A DNA stretch of 64,000 bases from Bordetella parapertussis (GTDB lineage Bacteria; Pseudomonadota; Gammaproteobacteria; Burkholderiales; SG8-41): the NCBI GenBank assembly GCA_945861275.1, contig CAMATZ010000028.1, positions 1-64,000 of the forward strand, read 5' to 3'. Made by a program: the position numbers and the translations under genes. The notes under the pieces are model-generated. The model was given only the letters and a program-made list of their open reading frames with translations, had not been told where the DNA came from and searched no databases. Positions 1 to 860 of this stretch are shown piece after piece (the stretch's first letter is position 1; each line of letters starts with the position of its first letter).

Positions 1-183
1 CGGGCGGTCGAAATCGCGGTCGCAGTACGCGAGCATGCGCTCGACGCGCTCCGGCGTGGGTGGAATCACCGGCAGGCCGTCGCTCCAGCCCTTCTCGCAC
101 AAAAACTCGAACACCGCCTCCGGATCGTCGTCACACTGGACCATTGCGCCGGGCGCCTGCAGCATTGCGGTGAGTGAACTCAT
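1..183 (-). CDS. Hypothetical protein, N-terminal part (runs off the window edge)
   Basis: The open frame starts at an ATG (181-183) and runs off the left edge, so only 61 codons are visible. Near residue 36 it has a tryptophan followed by DGLPVIPPT, a segment I associate with proteins found beside UGSC-family proteins. The start overlaps the stop of the upstream selenoprotein gene by 4 bases (ATGA), which implies translational coupling and a shared function. No catalytic motif is visible in the part present. The enzymatic role is unknown. Confidence 0.6.
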   Translation of the reverse strand, partial: MSSLTAMLQAPGAMVQCDDDPEAVFEFLCEKGWSDGLPVIPPTPERVERMLAYCDRDFDRP

Positions 184-716
184 GACTGCCTCTCCTTGAC
201 CACTTTCAAGAACTGCGGCAACGCCACCGTCGCGCGTTCAACCACTTTGTCCATGTTGAGACCGCCCAGCGGATGCTGAATTTTCAGCAGCGGCAGATCG
301 GGCACGCCAAACACCTTGGCCTGCGCCGTGCCGAGCTTCATGAAGCTGTCCGAACAAACCACCGCGGCAATCAGCCCGCGCTTGGTCAACTGCGCCATGT
401 CGTGGACACTCCACGACGTGCATGAGCCTCAATCGGCCATGGCGCTGATCACCAGATCAGCCTCCTGCGCCAATTCGTCGAGCACCTGCTCCGTCGCCGG
501 GCGGCTCGACGTGGGTTTGCGTTTAATCACCACCGAATCGACCTTGAATTCCTTCTTCACACCCTCGATGATGAGATTCAGCAGGTGGTCGGCATTGGCC
601 TTGCTGTTGTCCAGTATGCCGAGACGGATGCCGCCATTGCCCAGCCTGCGGTTGGATTTCAGTTGCGCGACCTCCTCAATCGGCGCGTCGGGTACTACGA
701 GAAATATCTTGCCCAT
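180..716 (-). CDS. UGSC-family selenoprotein with in-frame UGA (selenocysteine)
   Basis: Conceptual translation gives 178 residues if the UGA at 429-431 is read as selenocysteine (residue 96). The sequence around it is MAD-U-GSCTSWSVHD, which is the signature that names the UGSC family, and the frame stays open and protein-like on both sides of the UGA. Without recoding it would be split into a 95-residue and a 72-residue piece. The N-terminal half looks like an alpha/beta fold, and the U/Cys-Gly-Ser-Cys motif implies a thiol/selenol redox centre. The reaction is not established. A hairpin just after the UGA could act as the SECIS element. The selenocysteine machinery is not in this window. 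Confidence 0.8.
399..431 (-). promoter_or_regulatory. Candidate bacterial SECIS hairpin after the UGA codon
   Basis: On the minus strand, 11 bases after the UGA (429-431), a perfect 7-bp stem GTCGTGG/CCACGAC (411-417 with 399-405) closes a 5-base loop AGUGU. The loop begins 18 bases after the UGA, within the range usual for bacterial SECIS elements, and contains a G-U pair of bases as these loops commonly do. The hairpin is also protein-coding, as expected for bacterial elements. The assignment is inferred from position and pairing only. Confidence 0.6.
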
Positions 717-782
717 GAAAAGCTCCCTTTAAAAAACGTCAAAACACTTTTTTGCCACAGATAAACACGGATTAAACCAGAT

Positions 783-860
783 CGTAGCGTGCGCCATGCG
801 CGCGATCAATCCACGCATCCGGGCAGACTCTGCTTGATCGTGCGCATGGCGCACGCTACG
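783..860. repeat. REP-like inverted repeat, GTAGCGTGCGC family, copy 1
   Basis: Two 27-base arms (783-809 and 834-860), starting with CGTAGCGTGCGCCATGCGC on the left, are near-perfect reverse complements around a 24-base centre. They lie in the roughly 200-base gap between the selenoprotein gene and the HD-hydrolase gene. A related copy occurs at 57204-57259. This looks like a dispersed extragenic palindrome. The rest of the gap shows no gene. Confidence 0.7.

Follow-up and report, generated by a model that had tools for sequence, protein, structure and literature searches.

A gene split by an in-frame UGA is very probably a selenoprotein gene of the multi-copy UGSC family

A UGSC-family gene interrupted by a UGA

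The stretch of DNA analysed here, referred to as the window, is 64,000 nucleotides long and begins where contig C28 begins; the genome (5.5 Mb in 95 contigs) is 96.65% complete, with 2.1% contamination. The features of interest lie close to this contig end, all on the minus strand:

1..183 (-), 5' part of the partner gene U1, 61 codons and then the contig end; its ATG overlaps the UGSC stop (ATGA)
180-182 (-), terminal stop TGA of the UGSC gene, read from the sequence
183..716 (-), predicted UGSC-family selenoprotein coding sequence, 178 residues, residue 96 from UGA
399..417 (-), SECIS-like hairpin, arms 410-417 and 399-406 (8 bp), loop GUG at 407-409
429..431 (-), in-frame UGA in the motif ADUGSC, putative selenocysteine (Sec) codon, kept in paralogues and relatives
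723..727 (-), GGGAG in the sequence, likely ribosome-binding site, 6 nt 5' of the ATG

As the initial annotation had described, the open pieces 429-716 and 180-428 of the minus strand share one frame and are joined at the TGA 429-431 within ADUGSC, and this is the only in-frame UGA of the coding sequence. Its assignment to the UGSC family holds as well, as the two halves joined through the UGA pass the curated cut-offs of both NF041046 (132.7 bits, cut-off 125) and PF24696 (152.3 bits, cut-off 25), and the UGSC motif occupies codons 96-99, at the family position. The overlap of the gene's stop with the start of its partner was likewise found, the terminal TGA (180-182) and the partner's ATG (181-183) together reading ATGA. 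The space between the UGSC gene and the next upstream gene holds an inverted repeat with exact 19-nt arms (window 783-860); one more single arm of it occurs in L084, and it is possibly a small repeat element.

Selenocysteine machinery and conservation of the UGA. The sel genes, for which a search of the genome had been suggested, are all present. selC was recognised as tRNA-Sec with 74.5 bits (gathering score 47) and lies in the same cluster as the genes for SelA (586 bits) and SelB (455 bits), while SelD scores 427 bits and selD itself contains one in-frame TGA. The cluster (L082:9549-14220) consists of selA, selB, a thioredoxin-reductase-like gene (222 bits, under that enzyme model's cut-off of 343) and selC. 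The genome also carries a PrdB-like selenoprotein candidate with a UPNC motif, split at a TGA (L107:1300-1962, minus strand; 97.7 bits with TIGR04483, under the cut-off of 300). The number of UGA-containing selenoprotein candidates in this genome is at least 26, namely 24 UGSC genes, SelD and the PrdB-like protein.

These 24 UGSC genes are the PF24696 matches in the genome; all are above the cut-off and each has exactly one internal stop, which is always TGA. At 41 further loci, from other genomes, close relatives of the window gene were found, and TGA stands at the site in every one of them (40 are readable through the site, and L081 starts just before it). Neither a frame shift nor a sense codon was seen at this point in any of the 24 paralogues and 41 relatives, and both halves around the UGA are conserved. 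In an alignment of 37 members (22 of the 24 paralogues and 15 of the 41 relatives, with U written as C) the U column is invariant. The rest of the motif is slightly more variable: it reads U-G-x-C in 21 of the 24 paralogues and U-S-T-C in L038, and the Cys is missing from two, UGSS in L028 and UGTS in L030. In genome G035, the gene that by eye corresponds to L030 reads C-G-T-S where L030 reads U-G-T-S and is thus a natural Cys version; one gene of G050 (C76) has neither U nor C at the site. An overlap of 4 bases with the following frame recurs in 34 of the 37 relative loci readable there (exceptions L045, L061 and L080; L071, L076 and L079, which end too early, and L081 were left out of the count).

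The majority of the relatives belong to metagenome bins that bear the names Betaproteobacteria or Burkholderiales, and judged by these relatives the window's genome probably falls in that order too. Seven loci stem from bins labelled Bordetella parapertussis (L043, L045, L047, L049, L065, L071 and L081) and one from a bin labelled Chloroflexi (L066). UGSC genes in these eight bins are 76-91% identical to the window's, and it seems that the labels are wrong or the contigs misbinned.

The hairpin that follows the UGA

A stem-loop beginning 11 nt past the UGA had been reported as 7 bp long. Its starting point proved correct and its length did not: the stem has 8 bp, the seven pairs being extended by a closing A-U pair. 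The claim that it stands in SECIS position is borne out, as the hairpin lies within all the constraints of a published bacterial SECIS model. According to the accessible part of the source, this model asks for a loop of 3-9 nt, a stem of 4-16 bp, a G within the first two loop positions, a distance from UGA to loop of 16-37 nt and an energy of -7.5 kcal/mol or lower (PMC13188914), and the window gene (L026) has a loop of 3, a stem of 8, G as the first loop base, a spacing of 19 nt and -11.1 kcal/mol.

The 49-nt fold by itself is unremarkable. Compared with dinucleotide shuffles the stretch reaches z = -1.0, and 35 of 200 shuffles fold equally well or better. In place of this shuffle we used synonymous recoding of the gene's own peptide, which keeps the peptide, and against such recodings the window stem is rare (p = 0.004). 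Among the 24 paralogues, 13 have p < 0.05 at the UGA, with a combined p of 3.1e-12, a value that overstates the evidence, as do the combined p-values generally, because the paralogues, like the orthologues that make up most of the genes from other genomes, are not independent. At nine other offsets in the same 24 genes the combined p ranged from 0.17 to 1. When the SECIS model is taken with an uninterrupted stem, 20 of the 24 paralogues fit it vs 4.0 expected from recoding, the misses being L028, L032, L034 and L038. The test was also applied to 53 of 58 loci from other genomes (five, in which the motif filter gave no site, were left out), and p < 0.05 was obtained at the UGA in 23 of the 53 genes vs 0 to 3 of the 53 at four other offsets.

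Covariation points the same way in 13 paralogues, where 96.2% of the pair cells pair and the column pair 21-27 is G-C in seven members and C-G in six; these 13 of the 24 were picked for the same stem register, which favours pairing, and two of the five covariation measures were also reached in 30 of 500 shuffles. A search of positions 1-1600 against Rfam at relaxed E-values gave three matches, all far under their gathering scores.

The machinery, the hairpin and the conservation of the UGA have thus all been established by computation. With the sel genes present and the UGA kept in 24/24 paralogues and 41/41 relatives, the selenoprotein reading of the initial annotation is supported, and the split-looking gene is very probably the gene of a selenocysteine protein.

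Partner domain, predicted fold and spread of the family

The partner domain U1. The piece of U1 in the window is 88.5% identical over 61 residues to a full copy of 371 residues (L090:9922-11037, minus strand). Within the genome, U1 is fused behind UGSC in 11 of the 24 copies and adjacent to it in 10, which makes 21 of 24 in all, and it is absent from the fetched stretch around three UGSC genes (L085, L092 and L096). There are 25 U1 places in the genome, four of which have no UGSC match beside them (G000 C15:62833, C31:2878, C33:46797 and C51:1344); no UGSC motif was recognised near these four, where the ends of the open frames were viewed. A UGSC/Unknown_1 fusion was reported in 2008 (PMC2398784, in the accessible part of the paper), and U1 is probably the same domain as the Unknown_1 of that survey.

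U1 has no convincing match in Pfam or NCBIfam. Among 15 U1 members none matched the GrdE/PrdA models, a result with which distant kinship is still compatible. An ectoine hydrolase model matched two of the 15 (best E 0.0035) and a protease model one (E 0.019), and these matches were taken as chance. When solved structures were searched with the sequences of the UGSC protein and of U1, no E-value lower than 0.038 was obtained, and in a structure search with the fused model the matches listed hardly extended over the U1 half.

A pyridine nucleotide-disulfide reductase gene (L102:9118-10041, plus strand) overlaps the end of a fused UGSC-U1 gene, and genes for a TauD-family dioxygenase and a UbiD-type decarboxylase are among the neighbours of L083, a UGSC gene. 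Judged by eye, the context behind U1 is different in 11 of 12 relatives, these 11 being the ones with enough sequence. A cluster of TctC-type solute-binding proteins (one cluster member was identified by Pfam) lies near the genes in 18 of 21 stretches of the genome; as a telling link this was dropped, such genes numbering at least 150 in the genome (585 candidates).

Predicted fold. AlphaFold models, made with Sec written as Cys, reached a mean pLDDT of 88.9 and pTM of 0.89 for a fused UGSC-U1 protein (L025) and 87.7 and 0.81 for the window protein. Both predict a domain of the doubly wound beta-alpha type, in which Sec follows the third strand of the core and stands where a helix begins; in the window model residue 96 stands between strand 88-94 and helix 97-112, in a domain of five alternating strands and helices, and thioredoxin differs from such an arrangement in the order of its strands and helices. 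Among the matches listed, the structure searches returned common alpha/beta folds (flavodoxin-, receiver-, Rossmann- and TIR-type, and others) and no thioredoxin, a result which by itself excludes nothing. In a second look, the best of the matches listed was a chain of the methyl-coenzyme M reductase activation complex, with Z 11.2 (rmsd 4.5, 137 aligned) and 10.5 (rmsd 3.2, 131 aligned), leading the next listed matches by about 1 or less. The fold of UGSC is thus predicted from the models to be flavodoxin-like, and the thioredoxin-like fold proposed for it in 2008 (PMC2398784, in the accessible part) does not fit this prediction.

Possible kinship to GrdB and PrdB. In a profile scan of the 37 aligned members, 15 of which are close orthologues, the GrdB model TIGR01917 matched 13 (best E 6.2e-06), GrdF 6 (2.3e-05), PrdB 6 (0.0021), GrdH 5 (0.0069) and TIGR01918 4 (0.0017). 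Apparently unrelated models reached 5.2e-04 (phosphonatase-like, two members) and 9.3e-04 (SRP54, one member) in the same scan, and of the GrdB/GrdF matches only the best two thus rise clearly above this noise. Taken alone, the window protein scores E 0.13 with TIGR01917 (11.1 bits, cut-off 602.2), and it gave no match to the Pfam GRDB model at E up to 1. If the printed ranges are followed and no gap is assumed, the Sec of the window protein and that of L040 share column 347 of TIGR01917; on TIGR04483, again with no gap assumed, the Sec of L033 and L040 falls on column 149 and that of the PrdB-like protein on column 148. An hhalign comparison of the family with one PrdB-like protein aligned Sec to Sec with a probability of 18.5% and a pair E of 0.0013. 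We lean towards the view that the Sec domains of UGSC and of GrdB/PrdB descend from a remote common ancestor, as far as profile similarity may suggest it, which falls short of membership in the GrdB/PrdB family.

Spread and expansion. In the same bacterial family, UGSC matches above the cut-off were found in 74 of 74 genomes and tRNA-Sec above the cut-off in 67 of 74, with up to 40 candidates scored per genome; if completeness of 90% or more and contamination of 5% or less are required, 41 genomes are left, and the counts for these were 41/41 and 40/41. A survey of the order gave matches in 44 of 399 genomes (41 above the cut-off; 12 of the 44 from the same family), and as up to eight candidates were scored per genome, presence alone is taken from it. 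Fuller searches, with fragments included, gave 58 matches in G050, 40 in G006, 35 in G061 and 21 in G035. Of the 58 in G050, a genome given as 98% complete with 2% contamination, 57 were examined: 51 have one TGA as their sole internal stop, three a TGA and another stop, and three no TGA. In all 51 single-TGA genes the TGA lies in U-G-x-C (29 UGSC, 12 UGGC, 7 UGAC and 3 UGTC), and because no pair among them is 85% identical or more, they are not strain copies of one another. On one contig of this genome, five UGSC genes lie within about 18 kb (L168, G050:C27:8500-28000), with a sixth further along.

Two heme-copper oxidase genes above the cut-off (546.6 and 400.9 bits) suggest an aerobic life for the bacterium of the window. 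As far as the accessible parts of the sources go, a 2026 review states that selenoproteins are seldom retained by aerobic bacteria (PMC13188914), and a 2016 survey describes Sec use in aerobes and anaerobes, with 78.3% of selenoprotein-rich organisms being anaerobic (PMC5029168). As that survey reports Sec in many aerobes, the use of Sec by aerobes is in itself no novelty.

Proposed function and comparison with known systems

We consider it highly likely that the window gene is a Sec-encoding UGSC gene which works together with U1. We infer Sec insertion at the UGA: SelB with Sec-tRNA would read the codon 429-431 as Sec, guided by the hairpin 399-417, and translation would then couple through ATGA into U1. 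Since 10 of the 24 copies have UGSC and U1 side by side and 11 have them fused, the two proteins would act as parts of one enzyme. As the UGSC domain seems distantly related to the Sec domain of GrdB/PrdB, its most likely chemistry would be a reductive cleavage that depends on the selenol and acts on a small substrate lying between UGSC and U1. The resulting selenenyl-sulfide of U-x-x-C would be re-reduced by a thioredoxin-reductase-type system, for which the thioredoxin-reductase-like genes in the sel cluster and at the end of the fused UGSC-U1 gene of L102 speak, and different UGSC copies would serve different substrates. This mechanism of cleavage and re-reduction is a tentative one, to which we give somewhat less than even chances, and the paralogues with UGSS and UGTS weaken a simple selenenyl-sulfide cycle.

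A rather unlikely alternative is that UGSC is a general redox protein of thiol-disulfide or peroxide type, with a thioredoxin-like fold, instead of a substrate-specific reductase. The UxxC motif and the thioredoxin-reductase-like gene within the sel cluster would agree with it, but the AlphaFold models are doubly wound beta-alpha, no thioredoxin is among the structure matches listed, and outside the family it is GrdB that gives the strongest profile match; moreover, such a role would hardly call for divergent copies by the dozen (24 to more than 50), the majority of which have a large partner. We regard it as very improbable that the UGA is a true stop, marking a broken gene, two separate proteins or a sequencing error. 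The 3' half does have an ATG of its own (396-398), but the UGSC motif lies ahead of this internal ATG, the UGA is kept in all paralogues and relatives with both halves conserved, and Sec machinery and a SECIS signal are present. Reading of the UGA as another amino acid, by a changed code or near-cognate suppression, deserves just as little credence, since the window gene, most relatives and several paralogues also end at TGA as their ordinary stop, selection for the hairpin is seen at the internal UGA, and Cys stands at the site in a relative of one paralogue.

The two-part selenoenzyme may also be seen on a larger scale. It is possible, though we would rather bet against it, that UGSC and U1 form new substrate-specific selenoenzymes which share the Sec domain of glycine/proline reductase and have been multiplied, into tens of paralogues, by a Burkholderiales family with aerobic respiration genes to serve as a catabolic toolkit. 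If this is true, the UGSC family alone would make one of the largest bacterial selenoproteomes. The maxima reported in the accessible part of the 2026 review are 57 and 63 selenoprotein genes per genome for whole selenoproteomes, the genome with 63 being a metagenome bin viewed with caution in the review itself, and the functions of such selenoproteins are described there as largely uncharacterized (PMC13188914). The window gene and its kin would represent a large, little-studied set of selenium-dependent enzymes, found in bacteria with oxygen-respiration genes too, and gene callers that read UGA only as stop would break such genes. The possible link to GrdB/PrdB, taken with the nearly constant presence of U1, gives a directly testable hypothesis on the function of the family. 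Our literature search came upon no paper that describes the UGSC expansion, the link to GrdB/PrdB or this bacterial family, a weak negative given that subscription papers mostly lay outside the search.

Three known systems invite comparison. Thioredoxin-like UxxC selenoproteins share with UGSC the UxxC motif and a Sec at the start of a helix, but the predicted fold of UGSC is flavodoxin-like. The GrdB/PrdB proteins (TIGR01917, NF040794, NF040795, TIGR04483 and PF07355), which are the Sec subunits of the reductases for glycine, sarcosine, betaine and D-proline, share UxxC at the aligned position and the profile similarity around Sec. However, the GrdB model has 431 positions and the window protein 178, the latter scores far under the GrdB/PrdB cut-offs, and U1 gave no match to the models of the GrdE/PrdA-type pyruvoyl proteins that are the partners in the GrdB/PrdB family. 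Closest is the UGSC family itself (NF041046/PF24696), which the accessible part of the 2008 GOS survey (PMC2398784) describes with the same UGSC motif, the Sec form and the fusion form. The window gene adds one member to this family, known since 2008; the differences from that description lie in the 24 copies found in the one genome here, with 51 single-UGA genes in a relative, and in a partner which also occurs as a separate, overlapping gene.
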